NCBI RefSeq assembly: GCF_000327485.1
Contig: NC_019943.1
Coordinates: forward strand, 1,426,001 to 1,490,000
DNA from: Methanoregula formicica SMSP
GTDB lineage: Archaea > Halobacteriota > Methanomicrobia > Methanomicrobiales > Methanospirillaceae
DNA length: 64,000 nt
Direction: 5' to 3'
Part shown: positions 3,012-34,964 of the stretch, one piece after another
How the letters are laid out: each line of letters begins with the position of its first letter
How positions within the stretch are numbered: position 1 is the first letter of the stretch
Program-made: the position numbers and the translations under genes
The notes under the pieces: generated by a model
Told to the model about the DNA's origin: nothing
Seen by the model: only the letters and a program-made list of their open reading frames with translations
Databases searched by the model: none

Positions 3012-3015
3012 TGTT

Positions 3016-3888: not shown

Positions 3889-4619
3889 GAGTAGAGGTGC
3901 GAGCGCTTGTAGCCGGATGCGGTGCCTAAGACGGAGCGGCCCACGATGAGCAGGGCCGACCGCGTGATGCTGGCGTCCTGTGCCTTCTGTGCAATGTCGG
4001 CAACCGTGCCCCGGATGATCTTCTGGTCGGGCCACGAGGCATGGTAGATCACGACCGCGGGCGTGTCTTTCGGGCACGAGAGCTTTTCCGTGATCTCGGA
4101 GAAGTGTTCGCTGCCCAGGAAAAACGCCATCGTTGCCGGGACTTTCGAAATTTCGGGGATGTAGTCCTTCTCCAGCGTCTTTCCCGCAGGACGGGTGATG
4201 ATGAGCGTATCCGCAACTCCCTTGGGCGTGTACTCCGTGGTGAGCGCAGCTGCTGCGGCAAAAACGGATGAGACGCCGGGGACGATCTTCACGGTGAGAC
4301 CGGCCTTCTCCAGCTCTGCGATCTGCTCGACAATCGACCCGAAGATCGCGGAATCGCCCGAGTGGAGCCGGACAACCCGCTTCCCCTTCTTTGCCCGGTC
4401 GATCATGATGGCGACAATGTCGTCGAGCTTCCGTTCCCAGCTGTCGATCTTCTCCGGTGCCGGGCAGGTTTCGACAAGCGCCGGGCTGACCAGCGATCCG
4501 GCATAGATGAGGACCTCGGCCCGGTCAAGGAGTTTCCTCCCTTTCACCGTGATAAGTTCCGGGTCGCCGGCACCAGCACCAACGAACCAGATCGTGTTCT
4601 TCTCGTCACTTCCGGGCAT
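3885..4619 (-). CDS. cbiF: cobalt-precorrin-4 (C11)-methyltransferase CbiF
   Basis: 244 aa. It is a SAM-dependent methyltransferase acting at C11. It shows VGAGAGDPELITVKG at the N-terminus, YAGSLVSP, RLHSGDSAIFGS and PGVSSVFAAAA, the standard CbiF/CobM signatures. Its start overlaps the cbiL stop by 14 bases and its stop overlaps the cbiG start (ATGA). This packing implies one transcript and coupled translation. Confidence 0.94.
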   Translation of the reverse strand: MPGSDEKNTIWFVGAGAGDPELITVKGRKLLDRAEVLIYAGSLVSPALVETCPAPEKIDSWERKLDDIVAIMIDRAKKGKRVVRLHSGDSAIFGSIVEQIAELEKAGLTVKIVPGVSSVFAAAAALTTEYTPKGVADTLIITRPAGKTLEKDYIPEISKVPATMAFFLGSEHFSEITEKLSCPKDTPAVVIYHASWPDQKIIRGTVADIAQKAQDASITRSALLIVGRSVLGTASGYKRSHLYS

Positions 4620-5211
4620 ACATCACGCTCATGTAATCGCTCTTCTCGGGAAGCTCTGCATTCCGGTACACCTTCATGTCATCGAAGAACATCCGCTCAA
4701 CGAGCACGAACTCGCGGTAGCCCTCGGCTGCAAGCGAGGCTGCCTTCGCTTTAGGCTTCCGGACCTTGAGCAGGATCTTCGTGTCCGACATTGTCCCATC
4801 CGAAACCGTGAACCCCTCGTTCACCGGAACTCCAGCGGCTGACGCAAACGCCGTGATGGAACTGATCCCCGGCTCGGTCCGGAACTCGATATCCGGGTGC
4901 GTCTCCGCGATCACCGCACAGAGCCGTGAGAACGTGGAGAAGAAGTTCGGGTCGCCGAGAATCCCGAAGACCGCAAGCCCATCTTGCGCAACCGGTGCAA
5001 TCTTCCTCGCGTTCTCCTTCATGCACTCGCGGATCTTCCCCTCATCGTCCGTCATCGGGAAGTCGAGCACGACAGAATCGCGGTACGGGGCAACGAGATC
5101 TTTTGCAATCCGTCCGGGCACAAAAACCGTGTCGGCCTCTTTGAGAAGACGAACCGCACGGAGCGTTAAGAGCTCGGGATTCCCCGGGCCAAGGCCAAGG
5201 CCTACGAGCAT
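4606..5211 (-). CDS. cbiL: cobalt-precorrin-2 (C20)-methyltransferase CbiL
   Basis: 201 aa, near the short end for CbiL. It methylates C20 of cobalt-factor II/precorrin-2. The GLGLGPGNPELLTLRA motif at residues 4-19 and a PGISSITAFASAAG motif are visible. The start overlaps cbiT by 10 bases. The protein ends soon after the last strand with no tail. Other cobalamin methyltransferases in the operon share the same fold, but the charged segment after the glycine loop (LKEADTVFVPG) fits CbiL best. Confidence 0.9.
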   Translation of the reverse strand: MLVGLGLGPGNPELLTLRAVRLLKEADTVFVPGRIAKDLVAPYRDSVVLDFPMTDDEGKIRECMKENARKIAPVAQDGLAVFGILGDPNFFSTFSRLCAVIAETHPDIEFRTEPGISSITAFASAAGVPVNEGFTVSDGTMSDTKILLKVRKPKAKAASLAAEGYREFVLVERMFFDDMKVYRNAELPEKSDYMSVMYARK

Positions 5212-5744
5212 GCCGAGCCCCTCCCGACGATGATGTAGACCGGGTCAATGGGTTTGAACATGAGGCTTCCCGCAAGGGGCTTCGACCGCGAGACCTGCAC
5301 CTGCACGACCTCGACAAAGAGCCCGAGTTCCTGGAGGGTCGAGACCGCTTCGCAGACCGTGGAGAGAAGCACTGCGTTGATCACGATCTTCCACCGTACG
5401 CGTTTCGCCAGCACCGGGAGGATCTCCCTGAGGTTTTTCGTCCCGCCTACAAAGGCACTGGTGTAGACCTTGTTGCTCTCCAGGAATTCAGTTGCCTCGG
5501 CACAGGTGAACGTGATGTTCTTCACGCCGCGATCCTTCGCTGTCTGGCGTGCAAGATCAACCGCTTCGGGCCGGACATCGATCGCATCCACGCATTTTCC
5601 CAGGGTTGCCAGGGCAAGCGTGACCCTCCCGGTACCGCAGCCGATCTCAAGAAGGGAATCCGTTTTGTGAATATCGAGTTTCAGAAGCGAGATCGCCATG
5701 ATCTCGTCCTGGGTCGGACCGCCGGGGAGTCGTTTTGCGGGCAT
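5202..5744 (-). CDS. cbiT: cobalt-precorrin-6B (C15)-methyltransferase, decarboxylating, CbiT
   Basis: 180 aa. It is a class I Rossmann methyltransferase that methylates C15 and decarboxylates the C12 acetate chain. The GGPTQDEIMA motif at residues 8-17 and the SAM-binding LLEIGCGTGRVTLALA (residues 31-46) are diagnostic for CbiT. It is the first gene of the operon. The upstream 200 bp is A+T-rich with TATA-like elements and no recognisable cobalamin riboswitch. Confidence 0.92.
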   Translation of the reverse strand: MPAKRLPGGPTQDEIMAISLLKLDIHKTDSLLEIGCGTGRVTLALATLGKCVDAIDVRPEAVDLARQTAKDRGVKNITFTCAEATEFLESNKVYTSAFVGGTKNLREILPVLAKRVRWKIVINAVLLSTVCEAVSTLQELGLFVEVVQVQVSRSKPLAGSLMFKPIDPVYIIVGRGSACS

Positions 5745-5850
5745 CTGGATGAGTTTTGTTGGGAGAGGGTATTAAGGGTTGGGAAATGAGGGGGCTCGAT
5801 GCATCATAAGATAGAAATGATTGAGGGTCTTTGACCAGTTGGACTCCCGC

Positions 5851-5859
5851 AATATAATA
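5851..5859 (-). promoter_or_regulatory. candidate TATA box of the cbi operon
   Basis: The minus strand reads TATTATATT here, about 110 bases before the cbiT start. This would give a leader of roughly 80 nt. A weaker element, CTTAATAC at about 5768-5775 on the minus strand, lies 28 bases before the ATG and would instead give a leaderless transcript. The sequence alone does not decide between them. Confidence 0.35.
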
Positions 5860-5950
5860 CGGAAACGGATTATAACAGATAACTGAAGTAGAGACAATAG
5901 AATATTTCAGCAAAAATCAATTTAATAATTATAACTAGATGATCGTTTAG

Positions 5951-7111
5951 TTACTTAATAAGTTTTTTTTGAATGCCTTTTTCACTTCGTAAAACACTTT
6001 TTAACACCGGTTTCTCTTCAAGGTAAACATCAGATTCTTCACGAGTAATGAAATCTCTTGATTTGTTGAATTCTTTTGAACTAACTGTAAATTCATGCAC
6101 TTTTGAGATGTATTTTAAAATGCTCAATCGATCTGGATCATCTTTTGCTTCCAAATAATGATCAATCTTGTATTGTATTGCAGGATCAACAATATCTTCT
6201 GACATCATATCTTTCCAAGATTCTCCGTTATAATTACCAATACAATCAACGGTTAGATTATTTTTATTAAACACTTTAAATTTTGTAAAAAGATCTACTT
6301 TCCCTCGATTTGGTTTAGCCCGAGCATATACTTTAGGTAAAAAAATATCCCCTAAAATAAATTCATTCACATGTGACGCTGATAAATTCTTCAATTGCAT
6401 GTTTGCACGTTCAATGTCTGCTAATAGGATGGCAACTTTTTGTTCACTTAATATTTCCCACAAAGCATCATAGCTGTTTAGTGCATCCCGTACGGGATTA
6501 TACAATATACCTAAAAAATGAATTTTTTCAGTTTCTATTAATGGTGTCAGACAATTTATCGTCCGTCTAAGTGGATCTGGATCAACAGCACTGTTGATGT
6601 AAAACACCATTTCGTCTTCGTTATCTTTCGACAAATTGTCAACGACTTTTTTGTATTGATCTGGAGTGAAATCTAACCAAGGTATACAAAAAATTTTCAT
6701 CTTTGCTTCTTGTTGAATTCTATAAATTTTCCTCAAAAATTCAATTTTTTTATCGTATGAAGTAAGGACATCATTTATTGCAGTATGTGCAGGTTGTAGA
6801 CATGGTAAAATAATGTCGGAATGCTGCATTTTTTGGGAAGCATTTTCCAATTCATCAATGAAACTAGAAGGAAATGCATTTTCTGTTAAAAATTTTGTAA
6901 CTTCAGGGCTTGATAGTTGTCGATGAAACCCAGCAATCGGACTAGATAATGTAATATCAGAAGGGACTTGTGCTTTTGCTCGTAAATCCCCATTACTTAA
7001 TGCCCTTATTGGAGTTTTAATTGCTTTACTTCCAGGAGTTATCTCAAGTGAGCGTGCATTATAAAATAGTTTTGAGTCGTCCGAATCAACATGTTTTAAT
7101 CGAACTTTCAT
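5951..7111 (-). CDS. unknown 386-aa protein, last gene of an A+T-rich cassette
   Basis: 386 aa from ATG 7111; a TTG two codons upstream is the alternative start. I do not recognise the family. The middle of the protein (roughly residues 95-270) alternates hydrophobic strands and amphipathic helices: IILPCLQPAH, MKIFCIPWLDF, MVFYINSAVD, HFLGILYNP, VAILLADIERAN. This looks like an alpha/beta barrel or Rossmann-type domain, but no active-site motif is obvious. The C-terminal 60 residues are charged. It starts 6 bases after the upstream gene ends, so the three genes form one operon. Base composition is much richer in A+T than the flanking cbi genes, suggesting acquisition. Confidence 0.75.
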   Translation of the reverse strand: MKVRLKHVDSDDSKLFYNARSLEITPGSKAIKTPIRALSNGDLRAKAQVPSDITLSSPIAGFHRQLSSPEVTKFLTENAFPSSFIDELENASQKMQHSDIILPCLQPAHTAINDVLTSYDKKIEFLRKIYRIQQEAKMKIFCIPWLDFTPDQYKKVVDNLSKDNEDEMVFYINSAVDPDPLRRTINCLTPLIETEKIHFLGILYNPVRDALNSYDALWEILSEQKVAILLADIERANMQLKNLSASHVNEFILGDIFLPKVYARAKPNRGKVDLFTKFKVFNKNNLTVDCIGNYNGESWKDMMSEDIVDPAIQYKIDHYLEAKDDPDRLSILKYISKVHEFTVSSKEFNKSRDFITREESDVYLEEKPVLKSVLRSEKGIQKKLIK

Positions 7112-7117
7112 CGTCAA

Positions 7118-7687
7118 TTATTTGCCCCAGGTAATTCCTTTGTACCTTGTTTTAATTTTCGAATTCTCTGTCATTTTCGGGTATTTTTCATATACGTAAT
7201 TTAAAATTCCATCTGTCCCAAGCTGATCCCAACCAATTCTTTTCTGTTTAAGTGACTTTTGTAAGCCGGGATCCAATCCTGTGAATAGTTCATGTGCTCT
7301 CTTCTCGCCATTTTCCGTAAGGGAGAATGCTTCTTTTCTGGATTTTTTTCTCCCTTCAATCATTAGATGATGTGAAAACCACAAATCATCAACTATCTGC
7401 ATTACAGTGAAACTATAAGGTCCAAAATTGTGTGCAACGAATTTCGGATTCTGCGTTTCGATTTTATTTTTCTCCATTATTTCAGTAAAAACTAAAAATA
7501 ACTGTTTTATCAACATTGTTCTTCCAAAAATGGGTTTATCTTTTTGGGAATAGAACAAGATCAATATGATATCACTGATTAGCATTTTTTTCTGATGAGA
7601 GTCTTTTGCTTCATCTATTAATTTGCAGAACTGATCATAGTCATAGATCTTTGTTTTATCAGCCAATGCAGTGGTTCGCTTTTTCAT
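7118..7687 (-). CDS. Panacea/YwgA-like domain protein
   Basis: 189 aa. The order ILILFYSQKDKPIFGRT-hydrophobic helix-NFGPYSF-helix-FSLTENGEKRAHEL is the pattern of YwgA/Panacea-type (PanA, SocA-related) winged-helix proteins. Members often act as antitoxins or adaptors beside a toxin gene. Here the GRTMLIKQLFLVF stretch is near residues 57-69 and the FGPYSF motif near residue 88. Its ATG overlaps the upstream zinc-ribbon gene stop by 4 bases. The family call is by motif only. A role as antitoxin or defence regulator is inference from the family. Confidence 0.72.
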   Translation of the reverse strand: MKKRTTALADKTKIYDYDQFCKLIDEAKDSHQKKMLISDIILILFYSQKDKPIFGRTMLIKQLFLVFTEIMEKNKIETQNPKFVAHNFGPYSFTVMQIVDDLWFSHHLMIEGRKKSRKEAFSLTENGEKRAHELFTGLDPGLQKSLKQKRIGWDQLGTDGILNYVYEKYPKMTENSKIKTRYKGITWGK

Positions 7688-8175
7688 GATACTTTCCCCG
7701 CATTGAATGCGATTTTACCCTCATCATCACTTTTAAAGACCATAAAATATGTGTGATTATTTGCTCTGAAGACAATATGAAAATTATCAGCGTATATTTT
7801 TTTCTTAATCGGTGCGAGTAAAGAATAGGGTTTTGAAATCCCAATATACCCCTCCAAAAGATTTCCTTTATCAAGATTGTTAATAATCATATATTCTGCC
7901 ACTGTATCGGAAAACCGCATCGATCGTATAAGATTTTCAAAATAGTCATGTTTTTCAGAATTTGCAATTAAATAATAATCACGCCCACACACATCACAAA
8001 TTATTCTGGGTGGTTGATTTTGAGATGTATCCATTTCATAAGATGATGAAAAAACAACCAAATTCAATTTATAACTGATAGCACGGCGTGTAATGCTATT
8101 AATTGTTGGATTTTCATTACCACAATAAATACATGAATTTGGGGGATTCGTCACTATCAACAATTTAATATTCAA
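7684..8175 (-). CDS. zinc-ribbon protein, first gene of the A+T-rich cassette
   Basis: 163 aa if translation starts at TTG 8175, which has an AAGGT element about 9 bases upstream. A GTG at 8154 is an alternative. Two CxxC pairs (CIYCGN near residue 15 and CDVCGRD near residue 60) would form one zinc ribbon. The C-terminal half is a small alpha/beta region without known motifs. I do not recognise the family. It overlaps the Panacea-like gene by ATGA. No promoter consensus stands out in the A+T-rich upstream sequence. Confidence 0.65.
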   Translation of the reverse strand: MNIKLLIVTNPPNSCIYCGNENPTINSITRRAISYKLNLVVFSSSYEMDTSQNQPPRIICDVCGRDYYLIANSEKHDYFENLIRSMRFSDTVAEYMIINNLDKGNLLEGYIGISKPYSLLAPIKKKIYADNFHIVFRANNHTYFMVFKSDDEGKIAFNAGKVS

Positions 8176-8736
8176 AAATACTTTACCTTAATCTTTTTGA
8201 ATTATGAATTGTGAATTATTTCGAAAAATCAAAAATATTCATTCATTCTTGATTGATAGATTCTTGCGAAGCCACTATTTGAAATCTTATAACAAGTTCG
8301 TATTGTAAAAAATGTAGTGGAAAAACACTGAAGCCTATTCCTGACTCATCCATCACAAAATAACAAATTGGTCAAACCATAAAACCGAACTTAAGATTCC
8401 TCCCCCCGCCTGATGGCGGTCGCTCGGGGGGCTCGTCGCCCCCTCGCTGGGCACGGCCCGAACGCAAATTCTCGTACAGGTAAGTGAGTAGCGAAAAAGT
8501 CGGCAGACCTTTTCCGCGTCTGCCTCCTTTCATCCATATGAGCTTTCCATTTCACATCCAATGTCCGGCAAAAAATTTTCAATCAAGATCCGGTTGATCC
8601 GGAAATAATTTTTGATCGCAATGATGATCGCGTTGAAAAAAATTTCACGTAATGTCCGGTAAAAAAATTCCAAAATAATTTCCAAAAAAATTTCTAAAAA
8701 CTTTTCAAAAAATTTCAAAAATTTCCCGGCCCCGCT
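8176..8736. other. A+T-rich intergenic stretch with one GC-rich block
   Basis: No convincing gene. 8176-8390 is A+T-rich and should hold the promoter of the three-gene cassette. 8398-8460 is a short G/C-rich block with C-runs and G-runs able to pair. From 8540 the element AATGTCCGG occurs twice (near 8559 and 8650), each followed by an A-run. The end is a low-complexity A/T tract listed separately. Confidence 0.5.
8651..8725. repeat. phased A/T tracts, possible bent DNA
   Basis: Runs of 4-7 A residues followed by TTTC recur roughly every 11-12 bases over about 60 bases. Helically phased A-tracts of this kind curve DNA. A minus-strand open frame across it would encode only repetitive Phe/Lys/Glu/Leu/Ile sequence from a TTG and is not taken as a gene. 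Confidence 0.4.
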
Positions 8737-9018
8737 TCACTCATTCCCACAAATCCGAAACTCACAGCTCGCAAACTCCGCACAGTTTCGGCAGATCGCA
8801 AACACAATCTCGCAATGCGCACAATCCGGCTTACTCTCCAAATCACAATGATCGCAATCCGGTTCATCAATGTCCGGCCCGGATTCACCAACATCATCAG
8901 AGAACTCATTCTTCCGGTGCTTTCTCTTAAAATCTTCATTGCAGACATTGCAGTACGCATCAAGACAGGATTCACATTCCCCGGCCAAGGGATCGCAGCC
9001 CCAGTTCAGGTACGTCAT
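8737..9018 (-). CDS. cysteine-rich small protein, multiple zinc-binding CxxC pairs
   Basis: 93 aa from ATG 9018, with 13 cysteines. They fall in CxxC or C-x(4)-C patterns at residues 15/18, 23/26, 55/58, 66/69, 76/79 and 85/90. An acidic linker (residues 38-55) separates a first knuckle pair from the second group. Such spacing is that of tandem zinc knuckles or treble-clef fingers, so a nucleic-acid- or protein-binding role is plausible but unproven. The ribosome-binding site is weak. The regular cysteine pattern argues against a chance frame. Confidence 0.55.
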   Translation of the reverse strand: MTYLNWGCDPLAGECESCLDAYCNVCNEDFKRKHRKNEFSDDVGESGPDIDEPDCDHCDLESKPDCAHCEIVFAICRNCAEFASCEFRICGNE

Positions 9019-9618
9019 GCTGGTATCCCGGTACTGATGTCATGCAAACAAAAATTGATTGCGACAAAAATTTTCCGAATGGCAAAGCAGGAAAAGTTCA
9101 CGTTCCCGTGAATCCGCCGTCTGACACCCCTGACAGGGGGTACTATCACCCCAAATCCCGCCTATATATTAGTGCAGATCCGGACTCTTCAAAAATACCC
9201 GTGACAGGTCAGATACCTGTCACAGGTCACTTACCCGTCACGGGTCAGATGACCCGTAACTTTGGCACCCCCTAAAAAGCCACCCCCAAAACCCCCCTTC
9301 TTTTCATTCCGGCATCCCCCAGCCCGTCCGGCACTGAGTTATGCCTCTGTATTAGCGCTATTTGCGTCCAGTTTTCTCCGACGTAAAACTAAAGAAAAAC
9401 CCCGACTTAGTCCCGCTTTTTCGCGACTTAGTCCCTCATTTTGGGGTACTTACGGCCGCAGGGGTTTTTGCTCACGTAATTCTACGACGTGCGACTCCTC
9501 ATCAGAGGGGGCGCAGGAGAAGAATTCCCGTATGGGTATTCTTCGACCGAGAATCCCACGATCAGGTCTTTTCAGAGAGTCTTGAAAAAAGAGGTTTTCC
9601 GGATACCCGGAAACCGGG
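9019..9618. other. 600-bp non-coding region with repeats
   Basis: No gene is supported. It holds the perfect palindrome CCCCTGACAGGGG (9127-9139), the 18-bp palindromic array (9197-9257), a C-rich stretch (9267-9296), and a direct repeat CGACTTAGTCCC (9403-9414 and 9424-9435, 21 bases apart). Two plus-strand open frames (9042-9275 and 9262-9585) cross these repeats but have no protein-like features. Confidence 0.5.
9197..9257. repeat. tandem 18-bp palindromic repeat array
   Basis: Three 13-bp palindromes begin exactly 18 bases apart at 9197, 9215 and 9233: ACCCGTGACAGGT, ACCTGTCACAGGT and ACCCGTCACGGGT. Each is joined to the next by TCAxx-type spacers, and a half site ACCCGT follows at 9252. 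The second and third are perfect 6+1+6 inverted repeats. Regularly spaced palindromes are typical of operator or iteron arrays bound cooperatively by a dimeric protein. The protein is not evident nearby. Confidence 0.65.
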
Positions 9619-10311
9619 TTACTTCACCGGAATCGTTTCCATCGGCGACGCAATGATCTGGGCGTACGATGCCGGCGTGATGTACTGCGGCGTGTACACG
9701 ACACCGAACCCGGCAAGGCTCTGCGAGAGCGAGCGCATGTCATTGCGTGCCAGGGCCAGCTGCTGGTTGTAAATGTAGATCAGGTCTTGGTTGTCGGTCC
9801 GGCCGATTGCTGCGGAGAGGTCTGCGATGTTCATGTCCGTGAACTGTGCGCTCATCTTCAACGCATCGGATGCGGACGAGAGGCCGGTGTTGAGATCATT
9901 GGTGTACATCTGCTGGAGGCCCTGGTTCGTGAAGACGCCGGCCTTCTGGCTCTCCGGGTCGGGAATGTTGTACCGGACAAGGATCACATCATCGACTTTC
10001 ATGGAGGTTTTTGCAGCGTTCGAGATGTTCAGGAGGAGCGGGAGGGTCGTATGCATGCCGTACAATGCCGAATTGAGATCGTACGCGAACTTTGCTTCTT
10101 CCTGGAGGAGCAGGATGTCTGCGGTCTCGGTAGCGTTGAGCTCCGCTTTCGGCAATGCATTGAACGCCGCGTCCGAAGCAGATGGTGCGGGAGTTGCAAC
10201 GGGCACCGGGGACGTGACAGCCGGTGTCGTGCCCTGCTGGCCGGTACAGCCGGCGGCTGCTGCAAAGATACAGGCAAGCAGGAGGATCCCGATGAATGAA
10301 GATCGTGACAC
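9619..10311 (-). CDS. DUF2202 ferritin-like lipoprotein
   Basis: 230 aa from GTG 10311. The N-terminus is a lipoprotein signal with the lipobox-like end AAAAGC (Cys near residue 22), then a Thr/Pro/Ala-rich linker. Residues about 65-215 follow the DUF2202 pattern: an EEAKFAYD helix, RYNIPDP, GVFTNQGLQQMY, and AxxxTDMNIADL. DUF2202 proteins are four-helix ferritin-like. Here the second-helix Glu/His positions of the family appear replaced (NAAKTSM), so metal binding may be lost. It is exported and anchored outside the membrane. It is divergent to the AIM24-family gene. Confidence 0.8.
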   Translation of the reverse strand: MSRSSFIGILLLACIFAAAAGCTGQQGTTPAVTSPVPVATPAPSASDAAFNALPKAELNATETADILLLQEEAKFAYDLNSALYGMHTTLPLLLNISNAAKTSMKVDDVILVRYNIPDPESQKAGVFTNQGLQQMYTNDLNTGLSSASDALKMSAQFTDMNIADLSAAIGRTDNQDLIYIYNQQLALARNDMRSLSQSLAGFGVVYTPQYITPASYAQIIASPMETIPVK

Positions 10312-10451
10312 AGACTAGACTTGCCGTACGGAATTATTTGAACTATTCTTTTCGCTTCACACTGCGCTTTCGATCGCTTGCGTTTTTTTATCCGGAACTA
10401 TTTCCCGCAACACATTTCTTCTACCGGGCCGAAATTCTCATCAGGAATCGT

Positions 10452-11150
10452 ATGAAGCACGAGATCATTGGCAGCAATTTGCAGATGGTGAAGATCGATC
10501 TTCTGCCGGGCGAAGGAATCTTTGCCGAAGCCGGCGCGATGGTGAACATGACCGGTTCGTTCACGATGGAGAGCCAGCTCAAAGGCGGCATCCTCTCCGG
10601 CATCAAGCGTGCGGTCGTGGGCGAGAGCGTTTTTTTGACGCGATTTTCGCCCGGGGCAGGTGCCGGCTTTGTCTCGTTTGCCGGTACCATGCCAGGCAAG
10701 ATCTTTCCGGTCTCGGTCAGCCCGGACCGGGAGTTCATCTCCCGCAAGGATTCGTTCCTCTGCTGCCATGAAGGAGTCGAGCTCGACATCGCGTTCACGC
10801 GCAAGATCCAGGCCGGTCTTTTCGGCGGCGAGGGATTCGTGCTCCAGCGGATGACCGGGCAGGGCACGGTGTTCCTCCACTGCTGCGGGGACATTATCGA
10901 ACTCGACTTAAAACCGGGCGAGGTTGTCAAGGTCCAGACCGGCCTTGTTGTCGGCTTTGACCACACGGTCAGCTACGACATCGCGCTCGCGGGCGGGATC
11001 ACCACCGCGCTCTTCGGGGGCGAAGGCCTCTTTGTCACCACGCTCACGGGTCCGGGTAAGGTCATTCTCCAGTCCATGAACCTGGAGAAGATCGCAGCAA
11101 GCCTCATCCCCTATCTGCCCAAACCGGAAGTGAAGGTCAAACCGGTGTAA
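10452..11150 (+). CDS. AIM24/TIGR00266-family protein
   Basis: 232 aa from ATG 10452. The frame is open back to 10296, but that part overlaps the divergent lipoprotein gene and lacks protein character. The family is a beta-helix-like protein (TIGR00266, AIM24) of unknown function, widespread in bacteria and archaea. Visible features are EAGAMVNMTGS, the SRFSPGAGAGFVSFAG-type turn, the duplicated FGGEGFVLQ / FGGEGLFVT half-repeats and a TGPGKVILQSM end. No signal peptide or membrane segment is present, so it should be cytoplasmic. Confidence 0.88.
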   Translation: MKHEIIGSNLQMVKIDLLPGEGIFAEAGAMVNMTGSFTMESQLKGGILSGIKRAVVGESVFLTRFSPGAGAGFVSFAGTMPGKIFPVSVSPDREFISRKDSFLCCHEGVELDIAFTRKIQAGLFGGEGFVLQRMTGQGTVFLHCCGDIIELDLKPGEVVKVQTGLVVGFDHTVSYDIALAGGITTALFGGEGLFVTTLTGPGKVILQSMNLEKIAASLIPYLPKPEVKVKPV

Positions 11151-11162
11151 AACCGGTAAACA

Positions 11163-11867
11163 TTATTTTTTGTCCCAGCCGAGTTTTTCGAGAATATATT
11201 TTGTCTCGTCCTGCGGCTTCTCCCCGGGAGTCCGCGACTGGACGACAAGGGTAATTGCATTTTTCAGCGCAACATTGCCGCCTTTCTGCTTGCAGAGAAT
11301 ATAATCGCCGTTGAACCTGCGCAGCGCCTTCACAAACGCGTTTAAGATCTTCTTACGGTCTTTGAGATCGCTCTTTGAGAGTTTCATCAGGTGCTCGAAG
11401 ATGGAGACGTCGATGAGCGTGCTTGCAACCCAGCTGATCTCGCAGGTGTACCCGAAGATCCAGGCAATGTGGGAGTTCTTCGTTGTCGCGATGAAATCAT
11501 CGATGTTGTTGCCCACGCTGCACGAGCCGATCAGGACCCCCTCGATATTGGAGTACCGGGCCGCGTTCTTCACGGCCTTGAACATGGCCGGGAGTTTCAT
11601 GCCGGTCTTGGCCTTGAGCCCGCCGATCCGTTTGCCGGTGCCGTGGGCTGCAATGTACAGGAAGAGCCGGTCCTCTTTGGTATTCGTCAGGTCATCTTCT
11701 AGAGCCCGCCGGAATCCGACCTTCTCGTAGAAGTTCGAGTAATAGATGTTGAAGTCGCCCTGGACGCTCTCGAGGCCCTGGAGGAAGAGGAGGACCGAGG
11801 GGCGCTTGGGTTTTTCTTCGGGCGTCCACCAGAGGCCTTCGATGACGAGGAGTGCTGTGCTTGACAT
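11163..11867 (-). CDS. stand-alone caspase-like (clan CD) protein
   Basis: 234 aa from ATG 11867. Residues 68-79 (LFLYIAAHGTGK) give a hydrophobic strand ending in His75-Gly. Residues 110-118 (GVLIGSCSV) give a second strand ending in Cys116. This His-Gly...Cys arrangement, about 40 residues apart, is that of caspase, metacaspase and CHAT peptidases. No signal peptide, membrane segment or additional domain is seen. The C-terminal third is helical and basic. The peptidase call rests on the catalytic pattern only; the fold was not checked. It is convergent with the AIM24-family gene, 12 bases apart. Confidence 0.6.
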   Translation of the reverse strand: MSSTALLVIEGLWWTPEEKPKRPSVLLFLQGLESVQGDFNIYYSNFYEKVGFRRALEDDLTNTKEDRLFLYIAAHGTGKRIGGLKAKTGMKLPAMFKAVKNAARYSNIEGVLIGSCSVGNNIDDFIATTKNSHIAWIFGYTCEISWVASTLIDVSIFEHLMKLSKSDLKDRKKILNAFVKALRRFNGDYILCKQKGGNVALKNAITLVVQSRTPGEKPQDETKYILEKLGWDKK

Positions 11868-12000
11868 GGTATCACGCGGGGTCTTTTTTAGGCTGATAAC
11901 AAGGAGAGGTCACGCAATGGAATAACTGTTGTGGCCGGCCGGCACGGAAATTTTCAATTGTGTGGAACGTTGATCTTCCTTATCCAGTACCGGAATTTTT

Positions 12001-12354
12001 ATGAAGCATCCTGATGAGGAAAAACCGGAACAGGCTGATGGGTGTGATCCTGCACTGGCGGATGTACCCGAATGTCCCGCCGGGAACGTCCCCCGGGGCG
12101 TGACCCTTGAAGGTCTCGTAACCATGACCGGCGAGATGGAGCACCTGAACGAGCTGGTCCTGCTGCACGTGGAGAAGGCCGGGGGGTTCACCTGTACGGC
12201 ATCCTACCTGACCATCGTGACGCCCGTGCTCGACATGCTCGAAGGGGAAATCCGGTTCCGGTACCGCAATGGCATGGATCATGCAGAGATAAAGTCCATT
12301 ATCGCGGATTGGATCGACAAGGAGATTGCCGGATTCCGGCCCGGTAAAAAATAA
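12001..12354 (+). CDS. hypothetical protein, 117 aa
   Basis: I do not recognise the family. The N-terminal 35 residues are acidic and Pro/Cys-containing. From residue 36 the sequence forms helices (LEGLVTMTGEMEHLNELVLLHVEKAGG, then YLTIVTPVLDMLEGEIRFRY) with a charged end. It is cytoplasmic by composition. Third-position G/C bias is like that of neighbouring genes, which supports coding. A perfect hairpin 60 bases after the stop may terminate it. Confidence 0.6.
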   Translation: MKHPDEEKPEQADGCDPALADVPECPAGNVPRGVTLEGLVTMTGEMEHLNELVLLHVEKAGGFTCTASYLTIVTPVLDMLEGEIRFRYRNGMDHAEIKSIIADWIDKEIAGFRPGKK

Positions 12355-12416
12355 CCCCGCATTATTGAATACATTTTTTCCATTGCAATCAACCCCCATC
12401 ACGCCAGCCCTGACTC

Positions 12417-12437
12417 GAAGAACCTTTCAGGTTCTTC
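12417..12437 (+). terminator. perfect 9-bp stem-loop
   Basis: GAAGAACCT, a 3-base loop, then AGGTTCTTC form an exact inverted repeat downstream of the 117-aa gene. It is not followed by a strong T-run on the plus strand, so a terminator role is only likely. Confidence 0.4.
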
Positions 12438-12474
12438 TCGTGTCAAAGAGAGATTTTCATAAAAAGAAATTGAG

Positions 12475-12543
12475 GCCGCCGCGGGGCGCCCTTCGGGGAG
12501 GCGGCAAGCATCCCTTTGGGGTATGGGGGCCATCAGCCCCCAT
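12475..12543. repeat. cluster of GC-rich hairpins
   Basis: GCCGCC (12475-12480) can pair with GGCGGC (12500-12505) across a G/C-rich loop. ATGGGGGC (12523-12530) pairs exactly with GCCCCCAT (12536-12543). The block lies between two converging genes. It might be a dispersed intergenic repeat or a bidirectional termination region; copies elsewhere in the genome cannot be seen from here. Confidence 0.45.
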
Positions 12544-12596
12544 CTTTGCGATTGAGGATTAAAAGGGTATAATTTTCTTATGGTTTTCACACCGGC

Positions 12597-13802
12597 TCAG
12601 AACAACCCGGTAACCCACGCCCACAGGTTCCCGATGCCGGTGGAGATAACAACAGTTGGATCGATGCCGAGGACCGGGAAGACGAAGATGAAGTACAGAA
12701 CCGTGCCGAGCAGGCTCCCGAGGTTCCCGAGCGCTGCAACGAGCACGACTTTAAAGAGCGGGATCTTCGCCATTTCCTTAAGCGACTCGGTCTCGTAGAT
12801 CTTCCGGAAGTCGGTGACCGGGGGTTTCCGTACGCGGGCCTCGACATAGGCGCCGATCCAGCCGGCATGGAGCATCGGGTTGAGCGAGGTCATCCACGCA
12901 ACGCAGAAGCAGGTCAGGGCCGAGTACGGGTGGCCGCCGGCGAGCAGGACGAAGATGGCTGATAGCACGCCGTGGATGATCACCCAGAAGAGGAACGCGT
13001 ACAGGAGGACGTTTAAGCCCACTCCCGAGAACGCGATGGCTGCAAGCAGGAAGGCAAAGAGGAACGTGACACCGAAGCCGAAGACCTTCGCCCACGGGAA
13101 CGGTTTTGGTTCTTTGGTCAGTGAGTCGAACGGCGGGAGGGTCTTTGGGTCGTCGAGGTAGGCGGAAATTCCTTTACGGTGACCGGCGCCGATGACCGCC
13201 AGGATCTTTCCTTCGGGCCGCTGGGCTTTCAGGATGACGAGCTGGTGGGCGATGAACGCGTCGCGCTCATCAATGAGTGCCCGGGCTCCGTTGGGCGAGA
13301 ATTTCCGGAACTCTTCCATCACGACATCGATCACGTTCTGTTCCTTTAAGGACTCGATATCGATCTCCTGGCCGTTATCGATCTCGGCGATCGAGATGAT
13401 CAGGGCCCAGATCATCTTGAGTTTCTCGATGAACCCGAGGGTGTTCCAGAACCGCATCAGCGTGACGCGGATGTCGCGGTCAACGAGCGCGATGGGGATA
13501 TTGCGCTGCTCGGCTTCCGCGATTGCGGCCTTCATCTCGGCGCCCGGTTCAACGCCAACGTCGAACCCGATCTTGCGCTGGAGGTAGGCGAGGAGCCACT
13601 GGACGAGGAGAGAGTTGAAATTTTTTACTTCCAGGACATCGTTCACGCTCGGGTCACGTGCCTGCTTTTTCAGCGCAGAGTACCGTGCCGGGTCCAGCTC
13701 GATGGCAACGACATCGGGATGATAATCTTCTATTGCGGTCCGGACCTCGTTGACGCTCTCCTGCGAGACGTGGGCCGTGCCGATGATTTTTATTTCTGCC
13801 AT
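12597..13802 (-). CDS. TraB-family membrane protein
   Basis: 401 aa. The N-terminal 220 residues are a TraB/PrgY (TIKI-type) domain: IIGTAHVSQES at residues 5-15 with the conserved GxxH, IELDPARY near residue 35, and ERDAFIAHQL followed by AVIGAGHRKGI near residue 205. TraB/TIKI proteins are putative metal-dependent proteases; bacterial PrgY lowers pheromone activity. The C-terminal half holds several hydrophobic helices (about residues 238-320 and 355-400), so it is membrane-embedded. The archaeal role is unknown. Its upstream region is A+T-rich. Confidence 0.88.
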   Translation of the reverse strand: MAEIKIIGTAHVSQESVNEVRTAIEDYHPDVVAIELDPARYSALKKQARDPSVNDVLEVKNFNSLLVQWLLAYLQRKIGFDVGVEPGAEMKAAIAEAEQRNIPIALVDRDIRVTLMRFWNTLGFIEKLKMIWALIISIAEIDNGQEIDIESLKEQNVIDVVMEEFRKFSPNGARALIDERDAFIAHQLVILKAQRPEGKILAVIGAGHRKGISAYLDDPKTLPPFDSLTKEPKPFPWAKVFGFGVTFLFAFLLAAIAFSGVGLNVLLYAFLFWVIIHGVLSAIFVLLAGGHPYSALTCFCVAWMTSLNPMLHAGWIGAYVEARVRKPPVTDFRKIYETESLKEMAKIPLFKVVLVAALGNLGSLLGTVLYFIFVFPVLGIDPTVVISTGIGNLWAWVTGLF

Positions 13803-14130: not shown

Positions 14131-15888
14131 GTGAGCGGAAGTATTCCGGCAGTGGAAGAGAACAGTCAAGAAGATTGTTATTTTCCGGGTAATGGGGTGT
14201 GTATTGTGGTTTCTTTTCGAAGGATATGGGATTGGTTTTATGAGTTAATTCTGTTTATCATACATCTTCTCTGGCCAGTAAAATCGTATGGAACAACGGG
14301 AGCAAGGAATCCCTATTCTGTGTATCGGGCAATTCATGGAGATGATCCGTTTACCAAAAATTCAGAAAAAAATGATAGCGAGAGTAAATCATCATCTGTT
14401 CTCGCGATTCCTCCAAAAAAAGCAAGAGAACTTCTCAACAATCTCGGATCGGGAGGATCTGGGCTTCCCTACGAAAAATTGTTTGACCCCTATTACGGAT
14501 CCTGTCTTTTCACAAAAAAAACCATTGAAGAAGTAAAGGGATTTCAGCATGAGAAAATTTTCCTGAAAAGGGAGAGATCTTCTGGGATCGCAGCCCTGGA
14601 TGATTCAGATCGTGAAAAGAATTCGTCCGGAAACAATCCGATAATCGAACAGCTGGACGGAGCCCCGAGATTTTCCGGTTGCGTTGAAGATTTCCGTCGC
14701 TGGGATCCGGATAACCCTGCTGATCCTGATGATCCGTCGGCACTCTGTGCTGATTGGCTCGATCCAGATACTTTGGATGATGACAAAAAAACTGTAATCA
14801 ATTACCCGGATACAGTTCATCCCTCATTTGATGATTCGATCCAGGGGCCGGTGCCGGACTGTTATTTCCTTGCAGCACTATCCACCATTGCGTGGTTTGT
14901 TTTTAATTACCCCCAAAGAGCACCGGCAATTCTGGCAAAGAATGAAAGAACTCCGATAACTTTTGCCGATATCAGTTTAAAACTATACTCAGTTTCTGGG
15001 AAAAAAATCCCACCTGTCTCCAAAGCTACTGCAGTTAACACTAATTATCTACTTCCAAAAAACCAAAGTGACGCTTTTCAGGGGGTTCAAACAAGGACCG
15101 GCAACGCGAGCTGGCTCCCCTATTATGAGAAAGCATTCTTACGATATCTTGAAACCACCGGTATTCTGACACCGGGGGATCCAGACAAACCAGACATTTG
15201 CCGGATCCAAGGGGGCGATCCGGGAGAAACGTTGCGGGCACTGCTTCGGAGACCAAATGGAAAACTCAACCGATATATCATGAATAGTAGACTCCCCAAT
15301 CATAACTCCAACGATCCCGAGGCAGTCTGGTTAAGACTAAATAGTGTTGTTGCTGAAAAAGCCCCTGCAAACCCGGCCAACCAAGCACGACGGACACAGT
15401 ATCCGGCAGTGGCACGAACCTTTGGTTGCTCAGGACCTGATATCACGGGGGATCCTAACCCATCCCTTTATGCTGCAACAGCCAAGGGGGTAATCTATGA
15501 TAATGATCTGATAGTTGCTTCTCATTCTTATTCCCTTCTTGGAATCATGATGGACAGCAACAACCAGAGATACATAATCTTAAGGAATCCCTTTGGCGAG
15601 AACCATGGATTTGAATATGGGAAGCAATACAATGAGGATGGAACTCTGAAGTATCACCTATATGGAGATGTAGGGAGACAACCGGTTGGACAGAGTGGTG
15701 AAAAAGCTATTGATTACCGCCTTACTTTCCCATCAATTGTGTACAATCAAACGCCCTATTCAATCGCCCCGTGGATTTCAGTGAATACTACAAACGGGAC
15801 TGTGGTAATGCCAAACAAGGGTAAATTCGCCATCCGTCTTGATGACTTTGTTAACTATTTCCAGGAGTTCGATTACGTTCTAATATAG
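14131..15888 (+). CDS. calpain-like (C2) cysteine protease, membrane-anchored
   Basis: 585 aa from GTG 14131. The catalytic triad of family C2 is visible in order: Cys244 in QGPVPDCYFLAAL, His465 in ASHSYSLLG, and Asn486 in ILRNPFGE. The Gln of the oxyanion hole (Q238) is also present. One hydrophobic segment (about residues 36-50) may anchor it. Residues 50-225 are a polar linker with Asp/Pro-rich stretches. C-terminal to the triad are about 90 residues without EF-hands. Calpain-like proteases are rare in archaea. A+T-rich codon use unlike the neighbours suggests acquisition. It is followed 50 bases later by a giant surface protein on the same strand. Confidence 0.85.
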   Translation: MSGSIPAVEENSQEDCYFPGNGVCIVVSFRRIWDWFYELILFIIHLLWPVKSYGTTGARNPYSVYRAIHGDDPFTKNSEKNDSESKSSSVLAIPPKKARELLNNLGSGGSGLPYEKLFDPYYGSCLFTKKTIEEVKGFQHEKIFLKRERSSGIAALDDSDREKNSSGNNPIIEQLDGAPRFSGCVEDFRRWDPDNPADPDDPSALCADWLDPDTLDDDKKTVINYPDTVHPSFDDSIQGPVPDCYFLAALSTIAWFVFNYPQRAPAILAKNERTPITFADISLKLYSVSGKKIPPVSKATAVNTNYLLPKNQSDAFQGVQTRTGNASWLPYYEKAFLRYLETTGILTPGDPDKPDICRIQGGDPGETLRALLRRPNGKLNRYIMNSRLPNHNSNDPEAVWLRLNSVVAEKAPANPANQARRTQYPAVARTFGCSGPDITGDPNPSLYAATAKGVIYDNDLIVASHSYSLLGIMMDSNNQRYIILRNPFGENHGFEYGKQYNEDGTLKYHLYGDVGRQPVGQSGEKAIDYRLTFPSIVYNQTPYSIAPWISVNTTNGTVVMPNKGKFAIRLDDFVNYFQEFDYVLI

Positions 15889-15937: not shown

Positions 15938-18900
15938 GTGGGAAAAATGCATCACACGATGATAAACAAAAATTCCAATGACGGTTTCACTCATATATGG
16001 ATTAGTATACTTTTTTTCCTCGTTCTCCTCTGTACTGTAGTAACCGTTATCACATCAGCCGGTACCGTGACCCTCATTACCACAAATACCAGTGAGTCGA
16101 ACCAGTGGAATCCAACAATATATGACAATTGGATAGTATGGACTGATAACAGGGACAATACCGATTTTACATCCTATCAAGACATTTACGCTTACAATAT
16201 TAATACGGGTGTAGAAAAGAGGATAACCAATCCGGGTTCATATGCTAATCATCCCTCGATATCCGGCAAACTTGTTGCTTTTGACAATCGGCAAGACGGG
16301 AATACTGACATCTATCTTGCAGATTTGGAATCCGGTTCTGAATGGCGAATAACAGAAGACAGCGCCAGTCAGGAGTTCCCCTCCATCAGCGGACACAGGA
16401 TTGTCTGGCAGGATGACCGGTCAGGTGATTCTGATATTTACATGAACGGTACTTCTCCGGGTCTTGAAAGCCTGCTGACACCAGACGCTGCAACAACAAA
16501 TCAAAAATTTCCGATTATTTCAGGTGAAAAAGTTGTCTGGCAGGATGAGCGCAACAGTAACAGCATTTATATGACGGATATATCATCCGGATCATCTTAT
16601 CTCATCTCACCTGATGGTGTGACATTCGACTTTTCCACAGGATTTCCCGAAATTGCTTTTGATAATGGGATTGTTGTATGGCGAGATCCTCTCAATAAAA
16701 TTGTAAAGAATGATACTCGGCAACTTCCCATGAGTCAAAGTGAAGTGTCCCTTGATTCAACCACGCAAAAATACCCCTCTGTCTCTGGTGACAAGATTAT
16801 TTGGATTGATGATCGTCAATTCCTCGATGATATTTATTTCAATGATCTTCCAGGATCTCCTGATGAGAGGATAACAACTGATGATGATGCAGTCGACCTC
16901 TTGTATGGGTCCCCGAAAATTTTTAACAACAGGATCGTCTGGACAGACAATCGGGACAGTGGGTTCGAAGACGTCTACCTCTACACCATCGACCACGACG
17001 AGCCCTGCCCGGTTGCAGATTTCACGATGTCTTCCCAGAGTGGTGCAATCCCCCATACCATCCAGTTCAATGATACATCAACAGATGCAAAGAACATCAC
17101 GCACTGGAATTATGAGTTCGGGGATGGAAACGTTTCAGTGGACACAACAAAAGCAAACCAATCCTTTATTTACAATGTCCCGGGAACCTATGATGTCCGA
17201 CTCACGGTCAACAATCCCTATTGCCGTAGTGAGACACCTGTTGATAACAAATACAAGGTCAGCGTCGGTGCATCGCCCATCGCGGCATTCACGACAGATG
17301 TTTCAGATGGTTTTGTAGACCTGAAAGTCCGGTTTACCGATTCATCCATCAATGCAGAGACCTGGAACTGGTCCTTTGGGGACGGGACATGGTCCAACAC
17401 AACCGATGTTTCGGAAAAAAATCCGGAAAAAACCTACACGGCTGCCGGGACCTACACGGCGTATCTGTACGTCAACAACACCTGGGGGACCGCATCAGCT
17501 CACAAGACCATCAAAGCTCTTACCGGCGCCAACGTGACCGCGAACACGAGCATTGACGGCTTCGCCTTCACGGAGCCCTTTGGTTCGCAGTTTGTTACCT
17601 TCACGAAAGGAACTGTACCCGATTGCACGATTGCAGGGGACTCACTGGTATGCCATGGAGCGGATCTTGCAGATGATGGCTGGACCAATATCACATTCAC
17701 CTCAAACGATGGTATCGGATTCATGGATCACGGCGCAACCATTTCAGGAAACCTGTCCTCTGTGTCCTTCCAGATAACGGAAATACATCCCGCTGGTTTT
17801 TCCGAAACAACTGGCACCCAAAGCTCCATGAATCATACGATTACCCTTGACACGTACCCGGAAGATGCAACAGTAAATTCTCAGGTATGGGAAGGATACA
17901 CTGATGATGACCTCTTTCTGTTCTCTAAAATCGGGAGAAGTTCCGGTTTTTCCGATATCCTTGGCGTTGCCTACACATTGAAAATTGTAAAAACCGGCAT
18001 TCCTTCTGGCGGGACGGCGAAGATTCGCATGAGCGTCAACGCCACCTGGGTTGACGACCACATGGGGCGATCGCACACATATATCGAGCGGATCTCCGAT
18101 GACCGGTCAACCGGAGAAGTCTTACGGCCACGGTTCCTCTATCACGATCCTGCAACAAATCTTGATTATTTCGAAGCCGAATCCTCCCGGGGCTCGTCAA
18201 CATTCGGTCTTGTCCAGCTCACCGGTTCCGGCAATCCCTTCCAGCTCATCACTCTCACAATCGCAAGCCAGGTGAACGCACCACCACCATCTGGTGGCTC
18301 CGATTCATATGGTAACTCAGGAGCACCATCCGGCAGCGGTAAAGGCCTGTCGGCACAGGCCCCGCAAAAAGCGCCCGAACAAAAAGCTCCCGTTGCTTTC
18401 ATCGACTCAGGTAAGACAGCGCCACTCTACGCAAACCCGGGCGGAGTCATAACGCAGGAGACTACGCTCACGTCCACCGACACGCTGGCATCCGTTGTGC
18501 TTGGCGAGGGCACCATCGCAAAGGACAGCGCCGGAAGCCCGCTCTCCTCAATCAGCATCGCCTCAATCGCCCCGGATGCACTTCCCGCAGCGCCACCATA
18601 CGGCCAGGCAGTCATGATTGACGGGAGGGCCTATGAACTCGGGCCGGATGGGGCGACATTCTCCCCGGGGATTACCGTTACGTTCACCATCCCGCAGGCG
18701 CAGTGGGGAAAAGAGTATTCGCTCATGATGTACGACAAGGCAACCGGCACATGGTCTGAGGTCCCGGGTAGTTTCAATGCAAAAGACGGGACATTCACCG
18801 CCGTGCTGTCGCATTTCTGCTGTGTCGCGCTCTTTGAAAAGACCATTGGGCAGTCGGCGGTCCGGCAGACCACTCAAACCCCGCAACCGGAACCCGCCCG

Positions 18901-19084
18901 GCTTGCGCCAATCGTGACACCTTCTTCCCAGCCACCTCAGAATGCCCTCTCGATTGTATTCAGCATGGCTGAATGGATTTCAGGAGAGGCAGTGCACCGC
19001 AGCAGCTACCTGACCGCCCTTGCGATCATCTGCATTATTGTCCTCTCCATCATGCTCCTGTACCGGCGGCGGAATAATCCCTGA
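15938..19084 (+). CDS. large surface protein: beta-propeller, PKD domains, C-terminal anchor
   Basis: 1048 aa from GTG 15938; ATG 15947 is an equally possible start. Residues 17-42 are a signal peptide or anchor. Residues 55-355 contain repeated IVWTDNRDN / IVWQDDRSGDSDIY units of a TolB-like propeller. Two PKD domains follow (about 358-445 and 447-532; HWNYEFGDGN and TWNWSFGDGT). A Thr/Ser-rich middle and a C-terminal beta domain lead to a membrane helix (about residues 1020-1040) and a basic end YRRRNNP. This is the architecture of methanogen cell-surface or adhesion proteins. The propeller-coding part is richer in A+T than the C-terminal part, suggesting a chimeric origin. Confidence 0.85.
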   Translation: MGKMHHTMINKNSNDGFTHIWISILFFLVLLCTVVTVITSAGTVTLITTNTSESNQWNPTIYDNWIVWTDNRDNTDFTSYQDIYAYNINTGVEKRITNPGSYANHPSISGKLVAFDNRQDGNTDIYLADLESGSEWRITEDSASQEFPSISGHRIVWQDDRSGDSDIYMNGTSPGLESLLTPDAATTNQKFPIISGEKVVWQDERNSNSIYMTDISSGSSYLISPDGVTFDFSTGFPEIAFDNGIVVWRDPLNKIVKNDTRQLPMSQSEVSLDSTTQKYPSVSGDKIIWIDDRQFLDDIYFNDLPGSPDERITTDDDAVDLLYGSPKIFNNRIVWTDNRDSGFEDVYLYTIDHDEPCPVADFTMSSQSGAIPHTIQFNDTSTDAKNITHWNYEFGDGNVSVDTTKANQSFIYNVPGTYDVRLTVNNPYCRSETPVDNKYKVSVGASPIAAFTTDVSDGFVDLKVRFTDSSINAETWNWSFGDGTWSNTTDVSEKNPEKTYTAAGTYTAYLYVNNTWGTASAHKTIKALTGANVTANTSIDGFAFTEPFGSQFVTFTKGTVPDCTIAGDSLVCHGADLADDGWTNITFTSNDGIGFMDHGATISGNLSSVSFQITEIHPAGFSETTGTQSSMNHTITLDTYPEDATVNSQVWEGYTDDDLFLFSKIGRSSGFSDILGVAYTLKIVKTGIPSGGTAKIRMSVNATWVDDHMGRSHTYIERISDDRSTGEVLRPRFLYHDPATNLDYFEAESSRGSSTFGLVQLTGSGNPFQLITLTIASQVNAPPPSGGSDSYGNSGAPSGSGKGLSAQAPQKAPEQKAPVAFIDSGKTAPLYANPGGVITQETTLTSTDTLASVVLGEGTIAKDSAGSPLSSISIASIAPDALPAAPPYGQAVMIDGRAYELGPDGATFSPGITVTFTIPQAQWGKEYSLMMYDKATGTWSEVPGSFNAKDGTFTAVLSHFCCVALFEKTIGQSAVRQTTQTPQPEPARLAPIVTPSSQPPQNALSIVFSMAEWISGEAVHRSSYLTALAIICIIVLSIMLLYRRRNNP

Positions 19085-19104: not shown

Positions 19105-20601
19105 TTACTGGTACCGGGTTTCTGATACGTCTTTTGCAAGATCGTCCCGGATCTCCCGGAATATTCCCATTGCGATGATGAGGACCGGCGCAATCTCGAT
19201 CCTCCCCAGCCACATGAGGGTGATGAAGAGCCACTTCATGGAGAGCGGGCTCTCCGGGCCGATGAACCCGACTGAGAGGCCGGAGTTACTGAGCGCTGAA
19301 ACGATCTCGAAGACGACCTCGTCCAGCCGGAACGATGTGATGTAGAGATGGAGGGCGATGACCGTGGCAAGGAAGATGGTCAGCACGTAGATAACGATAA
19401 CGAGCAGGTTCTTTGAGACTGCGAGGTTCGAACGCTCAACGGACAGGGTTCTCCCGCCAACCCGGAGGGGGACGAGAACGCGGCTGCTGACAAAGAACCG
19501 CCGGAACCACCATTTCACACCCTCGAAGACAAGCGCGAGCCGGTTGACCTTAATGCCACCGGCAGTGCTGCCCATGGCGCCACCAATGAAGACCATCATG
19601 GCAAGGATCGCAAGCGGGACGGTTGCCCAGTGGTGCAGGCTGGTGTTCTGGAGACCGCAGGTGGTCAGGCCTGAGACTGCGGTGAAGGTCCCCTGACGGA
19701 CTGCCGAGAGGGGCGAGAGGTTGCTGAAGATAGAGAGATCGAGTGATATGAGTGCTGCCCCGATAACCGCAATCAGCAGGAGGATCCGGACGGTCTGGTC
19801 GCGGAAGATTCCCATGACCTTGCCATGGTACAGGAAGAGGAAGACCTTGAACGGGATGGAACCGGCAAACATCACGGGTATCAGGACTGCTTCGAGGGCC
19901 GCGTTGTTGTAGTACGCAAGACCTGTATCGTGGAGGGTGAACCCGCCGGTCGCGATGGTTGTCATAACGAGGTTTAAGGAGTCCCAGAGCGGGATTCCTG
20001 TCAGCATCACAAGACCCGTGAAGCCGAAGGTGAGGACGAGGTAGATCATCCAGAGCCTTCTGCTTGAAGAAGTTGTGGCAGAGACCAGTGCGTCTTCCCG
20101 GCCCTCTGCCCGGTACATCCGGAACAGGGAGACACGCGTCTTCGTGCGCAGGGAGATCCCAAACACGATGACACCGATGCCGCCCACCCACTGCATGAAC
20201 GAACGCCAGAAGAGGAGCGTGTCCGGTGTCTGGTCAAGGGACGGGATCATCGAGAAGGCTGTACCGGTCCAGCCGGCCATGGCCTCGAAAACAGCATCCG
20301 TGTAGGACATGCCAAGGCCGAAGACGAACGGGAGTGCCCCTACAAAGGCGATGGCAAGCCAGGAGAGGGCAACCGCCGAGAGCGTTGCGGAGAGCGAGGG
20401 TTCTATGTCCTCGTGGGGGATATGGGATATCAAAAATCCGGTGGCAAGGAACACGAACGGGGCTGTTGCCATGGGGAGCAGGAGATCCCATTCGCCAAAG
20501 ATCACAAGGATGAGAAACGGCAGGAGGGATACGATGCCTAGGAACTCGAAGATGAGTCCCATATCGTGCGCGATCATGGCAAGGTGCCGGGTCCGCTTCA
20601 T
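19105..20601 (-). CDS. trkH: Trk-type K+ transport subunit TrkH
   Basis: 498 aa integral membrane protein. The four pore-loop regions of the TrkH/KtrB family are seen as AGWTGTAFSM, TIATGGFTLHD, SGLTTCGLQN and ALSNSGLSVG, between paired hydrophobic helices. It moves K+ across the cytoplasmic membrane and normally needs a cytosolic TrkA gating ring, which is not in this window. It is divergent from the AI-2E-family gene, and the Kup transporter lies 1.3 kb away. Confidence 0.93.
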   Translation of the reverse strand: MKRTRHLAMIAHDMGLIFEFLGIVSLLPFLILVIFGEWDLLLPMATAPFVFLATGFLISHIPHEDIEPSLSATLSAVALSWLAIAFVGALPFVFGLGMSYTDAVFEAMAGWTGTAFSMIPSLDQTPDTLLFWRSFMQWVGGIGVIVFGISLRTKTRVSLFRMYRAEGREDALVSATTSSSRRLWMIYLVLTFGFTGLVMLTGIPLWDSLNLVMTTIATGGFTLHDTGLAYYNNAALEAVLIPVMFAGSIPFKVFLFLYHGKVMGIFRDQTVRILLLIAVIGAALISLDLSIFSNLSPLSAVRQGTFTAVSGLTTCGLQNTSLHHWATVPLAILAMMVFIGGAMGSTAGGIKVNRLALVFEGVKWWFRRFFVSSRVLVPLRVGGRTLSVERSNLAVSKNLLVIVIYVLTIFLATVIALHLYITSFRLDEVVFEIVSALSNSGLSVGFIGPESPLSMKWLFITLMWLGRIEIAPVLIIAMGIFREIRDDLAKDVSETRYQ

Positions 20602-33204: not shown

Positions 33205-33218
33205 GGATGGTGAAAACA

Positions 33219-33842: not shown

Positions 33843-33857
33843 TCTCTCTTTTTTTAT
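33843..33857 (+). terminator. oligo-T after the archaellin genes
   Basis: TCTCTTTTTTT immediately follows the second archaellin stop. It would let the abundant filament mRNA end here, with the motor genes transcribed from their own promoter or by read-through. Confidence 0.45.
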
Positions 33858-33977
33858 GAAATCCTGCGATTTCTGTTGATTTTCTCAATATATTATTACA
33901 AGCTGCAGAAAAGCGCCTTCTATCTTTGTTATTATGAACCGAGTACCGCAATTATCGCTGTTTTCCCTGTAAGAATC

Positions 33978-33987
33978 TTTATTAATT
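33978..33987 (+). promoter_or_regulatory. candidate TATA box of the archaellum motor genes
   Basis: TTTATTAATT lies about 30-39 bases before arlCDE, predicting a very short leader. It supports transcription separate from arlB. Confidence 0.4.
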
Positions 33988-34961: not shown

Positions 34962-34964
34962 TCA

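Follow-up and report, generated by a model that had tools for sequence, protein, structure and literature searches.

The described proteins closest to the subject of this report are the animal calpains (calpain-1, -2, -3, -5, -8, and -9), whose C2-family core carries Gln, Cys, His, and Asn active-site residues and a W..(Y/L)EKAYAK segment, and the bacterial calpain homologues, which have the same core, are rare and patchily distributed, lack EF-hands, and are in some cases membrane-associated (PMC4631099). According to two surveys, archaea lack calpains (PMC4631099, PMC9380684), and this absence is a premise in accounts of the origin of eukaryotic calpains, which invoke either transfer from bacteria or loss in an archaeal ancestor (PMC4631099, PMC9380684). 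A literature search found no paper reporting an archaeal calpain, while automatic annotation may already label some archaeal calpain genes as such. Here we describe a calpain-type protease gene on the forward strand (14131-15888) of a 64,000-nucleotide stretch of the Methanoregula formicica SMSP chromosome, hereafter the window, which covers positions 1426001-1490000 of a single-contig genome of 2,820,858 bases (NC_019943.1). The gene belongs to a clade of archaeal calpains that is accompanied by a constant partner gene for a predicted surface protein. The original prediction, which placed a C2 protease in an archaeon, understated this finding and missed the partner gene, the fact that the pair occupies a fixed site in some genomes and is absent there in others, and how strongly the alleles diverge.

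Archaeal members of the C2 family

The match of the window protein to the Pfam model for C2 peptidases (PF00648 Peptidase_C2; 24.4 bits, curated cut-off 23.8, E 1.8e-5) is too weak to serve as sole proof, and the protein by itself gives no significant match to any solved structure; membership in the family is settled by its relatives. A profile built from an alignment of 31 archaeal relatives (A1) matches calpain-9, -3, -8, -5, -1, and -2 in the PDB with E-values from 6e-26 to 1e-16, and profile positions 109-373 align end to end with the animal calpain cores. A single member, L056, also matches calpain-8 without the help of a profile (E 4.7e-9), and PF00648 matches each of the 31 members individually at E 0.01 or better. 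Since both the family profile and this lone sequence find solved calpains, the resemblance is not a product of chance. The order of the oxyanion Gln and the C2 triad (Gln, Cys, His, Asn) is kept in alignment with the animal calpains, and the catalytic residues proposed in the original prediction fall at the positions it gave. Among the 40 archaeal sequences of the tree described below, the oxyanion residue Gln238 (14842-14844), the predicted nucleophile Cys244 (14860-14862), Glu333, and the predicted catalytic base His465 (15523-15525) never vary, Trp328 occurs in 39, and the third triad residue, Asn486 (15586-15588), is Asn in 32 and Asp in seven, the remaining sequence being truncated. These residues lie in a protease core (residues 228-585; 14812-15885) that aligns to the catalytic core of the animal enzymes. 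An AlphaFold model computed from two sequences only had a predicted local distance difference test (pLDDT) score of 30 and was not used. Judged by its sequence, this archaeal gene encodes a genuine cysteine protease of the C2 family.

The archaeal proteins differ from the animal calpains in that neither EF-hands nor any other calpain regulatory domain was found in them and in that they form a separate clade. No EF-hand model of Pfam matches the window protein or any of the 31 profile members, as the original prediction had noted for the former, and the window protein contains no Pfam domain besides Peptidase_C2. When the calcium-binding positions listed for calpains (PMC4631099) are followed through the alignment, 32 of the 40 archaeal sequences retain an Asp corresponding to that of site 1, and no acidic residues align with the Glu of site 1 or the first Glu of site 2. 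With the calcium-site residues largely not conserved, the sequences do not describe a classical calcium-activated calpain.

Searched with the A1 profile, genomes of the class Methanomicrobia contain the family in 45 of 232 cases (25 of the 135 genomes of high quality), spread over 13 of 40 genera and three families of the class, and a phylum-wide sample of 393 genomes yielded 17 positives, all from the same order. In these genomes the clade is found in the Methanomicrobiales, where its distribution is patchy. A phylogeny, which had been suggested as a check together with the original prediction, was computed from 40 archaeal, four bacterial, one viral-contig, and three animal sequences; all archaeal calpains lie on one side of a branch with support of 99/98, apart from references that are few and long-branched, the bacterial ones being four plasmid genes, and the tree is silent on the root and on which way any ancient transfer went. 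Within the clade, the window protein groups with L045, L047, L048, and L050. A search of viral contigs and phages returned no relatives of the archaeal proteins.

The gene was originally delimited at 14131-15888, and an open reading frame of 585 codons with a GTG start is present at exactly this place, with the opposite strand full of stops. The closest named relative of the window, the Methanoregula sp. assembly L045 (87-88% identical), was the only one returned by a scan of genome contigs. In L045 a length difference shifts and stops the frame that begins at 14131, and for this reason a start at GTG 14206, from which a frame common to both genomes can begin and just upstream of which lies a G-rich stretch, is preferred. 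The start at 14131 is doubtful and the true product is probably 560 amino acids long; residue numbers given here keep the 585-residue version. Promoter and terminator scans gave results near the shuffled expectation, the promoter scan being a bacterial one and not informative for archaea.

The original prediction also included an N-terminal membrane helix. A hydrophobic helix does exist (residues 32-50; 14224-14280), but its membrane-spanning nature is marginal: the maximal mean Kyte-Doolittle hydropathy over 19 residues is 1.43, where the usual threshold for transmembrane segments is 1.6, the helix is amphipathic (hydrophobic moment 0.4-0.6), its Asp, Glu, and His residues sharing one face, and of the relatives examined L045 alone shares it with the window protein. 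It could be an anchor to the membrane surface. In the other calpain relatives examined, no signal peptide or transmembrane helix is seen, and as a group the calpains look cytosolic, with the partner protein predicted to face outside. Further along the protein, a module with GARNPY ... LFDPxxGS motifs (14299-14502) is found in the longer archaeal members of the family alignment and not in the short ones.

The surface-protein partner and its site

Gene neighbourhoods were compared for 32 loci and later for 43 calpains. Wherever the sequence extends far enough, the gene that follows on the same strand encodes a protein of about 900-1100 residues, which is a single long frame in 37 of the 43 cases and is interrupted by a broken frame or a contig end in the other six; in three loci the two genes overlap by 4 bases. 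The partner consists of a hydrophobic N-terminus of signal-peptide strength, a beta-propeller of TIGR04275 repeats, PKD domains, a domain of about 250 residues, and, in most cases, a C-terminal membrane segment. In the window this predicted secreted surface protein, including its C-terminal membrane segment, is encoded at 15938-19084 on the forward strand, with the propeller at approximately 16064-16987 (182 bits), the PKD domains at 17000-17527 (Pfam), and the domain of about 250 residues (alignment A3), which has no Pfam or NCBIfam model in the window protein, at 17531-18292; some relatives match PEGA in this last domain. The partner shares its propeller and PKD domains with described TIGR04275 surface proteins of methanogens, and differs from them in the additional domain and in being tied to a calpain gene. 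The archaeal clade, which the tree sets apart from the four bacterial references, likewise differs from the bacterial homologues in its constant, separate partner gene, and propeller, PKD, and HEAT domains are not mentioned in the survey of bacterial homologues (PMC4631099).

The association holds when approached from the partner. Across the 232 genomes, matches above 160 bits to the domain of about 250 residues nearly always have a calpain gene upstream or lie at a contig edge, and the genome of the window contains one strong copy only. Two partner paralogues without a calpain (L167 and L168) have no propeller match, whereas all tested calpain-linked partners match the propeller. In genome G147 the calpain, the signal peptide of the partner, and most of the propeller are gone together, leaving a decayed unit (L162). 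Next to the unit, many loci also carry two HEAT-repeat membrane proteins in tandem, whose C-terminal segments are hydrophobic. Other variants of the unit include L051 (genome G159; 2762-12902), where two calpain-plus-partner units stand in tandem and the two calpains are not each other's nearest relatives, and L050 (G191) and L075 (G145), whose reading frames in the unit are broken, possibly through assembly errors. By eye, the C-terminal region of the window's partner (18500-18900, forward strand) resembles a ZU5-type domain that has an HFC motif (SHFCCVALF) at its end, with no model match. This motif recalls the HF|S self-cleavage motif of ZU5/FIIND domains.

In the window the two genes lie between a TraB-family gene (12597-13802, reverse strand) and a gene named by eye from its sequence as a TrkH-like transporter (19105-20601, reverse strand). 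The gap between these borders is an empty 110-352 bp in 21 relatives and 4.4-5.3 kb in four genomes that hold both calpain and partner (G000, G185, G161, and G182), while four further genomes fall outside both classes (two with about 1 kb and two with about 11 kb). The two-gene unit of Methanoregula comes and goes at a fixed site, and the polarity between filled and empty states can be read either way. A classical mobile element was considered and rejected, as the repeats found within the unit and in its surroundings are all short and chance-like, and no integrase was seen next to it. On the far side of TraB, a gene at 11163-11867 (reverse strand) encodes a 234-residue protein with AAHG and GSCS motifs that weakly resembles C13/legumain-like proteases (Pfam E 0.013, below the cut-off); it stays beside TraB in L045 and L052, where it is 82-94% identical.

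Allelic divergence and possible functions

Divergence between alleles was examined in 21 syntenic pairs whose flanking genes are at least 80% identical (median), the pairs not being mutually independent. In 14 of them the calpain core is at most 45% identical, and in three it is at least 80% identical. The best example is the pair L075/L150, with flanks 91% and calpains 39% identical: DNA identity drops from about 88% to about 45% at a point 1.2 kb before the calpain gene, stays low across the calpain and the first 0.9 kb or so of the partner (the propeller), and recovers to 72-86% over the PKD domains. The same L075 calpain is 81% identical to that of L068, where the flanks are 83% identical, and the L153 calpain is 95% identical to that of L065 and 36% identical to that of its syntenic partner L155. 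In several pairs the protease and the propeller change jointly. Read by inspection, the incongruence and the breakpoints, which are sharp in L075/L150 and for that reason argue for replacement in place, suggest that alleles are exchanged at the site, often with the propeller included.

The unit may encode a surface-coupled regulatory protease with a role in conflict or recognition, a reading to which we assign a probability of roughly 0.4. A role of this kind is favoured over housekeeping because the outer domain is variable, the protease is variable around fixed catalytic residues, the unit is present in some genomes and absent from others, and its alleles appear to be exchanged. The partner's propeller would bind a variable external partner (a virus, a neighbouring cell, or matrix), a signal would pass the membrane, the HEAT proteins perhaps serving as scaffolds on its inner side, and the calpain, which without a signal peptide may sit at the inner membrane face, would then be unleashed to cleave cellular targets. 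We infer the sidedness, signalling, substrate, and biological role alike from sequence. A more specific form, proposed tentatively, is a conflict system of methanogens that has not been described before, with the propeller protein as extracellular receptor, the calpain as cytosolic effector, and the two exchanged jointly between strains as allelic cassettes.

Several observations weigh against a conflict or recognition role. The propeller is predicted to lie outside and the calpain inside, which puts a membrane between the members of the pair, and the predicted cytoplasmic tail of the partner is only a few residues long. In the genome of the window the HEAT pair is found elsewhere (at about 588-590 kb), unlinked to the unit. 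None of the 31 calpains matches a PADLOC model, a scan that did not extend to the partner and HEAT proteins, and no defence island was recognised at the locus, although conflict genes often cluster in such islands. Taken over all pairs, calpain identity correlates weakly with propeller identity (Spearman 0.20, partial 0.16, permutation p 0.029), no more strongly than it does with identity in the PKD region; strong co-evolution of protease and propeller is weakly supported by these values, and strict co-evolution is not claimed.

The calpain could instead process surface or envelope proteins, as a maturation or turnover protease without any part in conflict, in which case its variability would follow the diversity of the surface. 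The constant pairing with one surface protein and the joint loss of calpain and propeller in G147 would be expected of such an enzyme. Calpains without a signal peptide would not meet the extracellular part of the partner, however, most relatives do without the pair, and in the syntenic pairs the surface protein varies no more than the protease that would serve it. We regard this explanation as rather unlikely.

The low identity at conserved sites could also stem from the calpain evolving very rapidly in situ, without allele exchange. The identities in syntenic pairs spread over 30-60% without forming two clean classes, and in the closest pair, the window and L045, the ratio of nonsynonymous to synonymous substitution rates (dN/dS) of the calpain is 0.34, compared with 0.05-0.10 in the flanking genes. 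Against fast evolution stand the sharp breakpoints and nearest relatives that conflict (for L075, L150 by flanks and L068 by calpain; for L153, L065 over the syntenic L155), and in two other pairs, which share an allele, the calpain dN/dS is 0.04-0.06, as under ordinary constraint. The latter values contradict uniformly relaxed selection as the source of the low identities, which the window/L045 value does not. On balance, we consider fast evolution improbable and exchange of alleles the better account.

The A+T-rich codon use of the gene had been taken in the original prediction as a sign of acquisition, but G+C below that of the neighbourhood is found in 37 of 41 calpain loci across the order, and because these sequences also form a single archaeal clade (99/98), low G+C is better regarded as a trait of the gene family; together with the constancy of the partner gene, this already contradicts recent uptake of a lone foreign gene from a bacterium, which is very improbable.

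Wider context

Other calpain-type genes were met in the course of the comparison. Four lie on plasmids of Streptomyces, Calothrix, Cedecea, and Mycolicibacterium (L077, L078, L097, and L174), which contrasts with the statement that bacterial calpain genes are never found on plasmids (PMC4631099). Another (L096:47-811), from a viral contig of 160,708 bases (IMG/VR 3300009709_000003), encodes a calpain-type protein whose N-terminus resembles that of a lipoprotein. Elsewhere in the window, two open reading frames of 388 and 189 residues without Pfam matches (5951-7687, reverse strand) occupy its most A+T-rich stretch (33% G+C), and an archaellum region (32626-40249, forward strand) contains two archaellins, a KaiC-type ATPase, a T2SSE ATPase, and a weak T2SSF match.

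The presence of a calpain clade across 13 genera of Methanomicrobia removes the premise that archaea lack calpains, and the separate position of this clade is not in itself a pointer to an archaeal origin of eukaryotic calpains. With a surface protein as its constant companion and with alleles this divergent, the protease allows a regulatory or conflict role to be tested directly in methanogens. If the reading as a conflict system is true, calpain-based signalling would exist in Archaea as well as in Bacteria and Eukarya.
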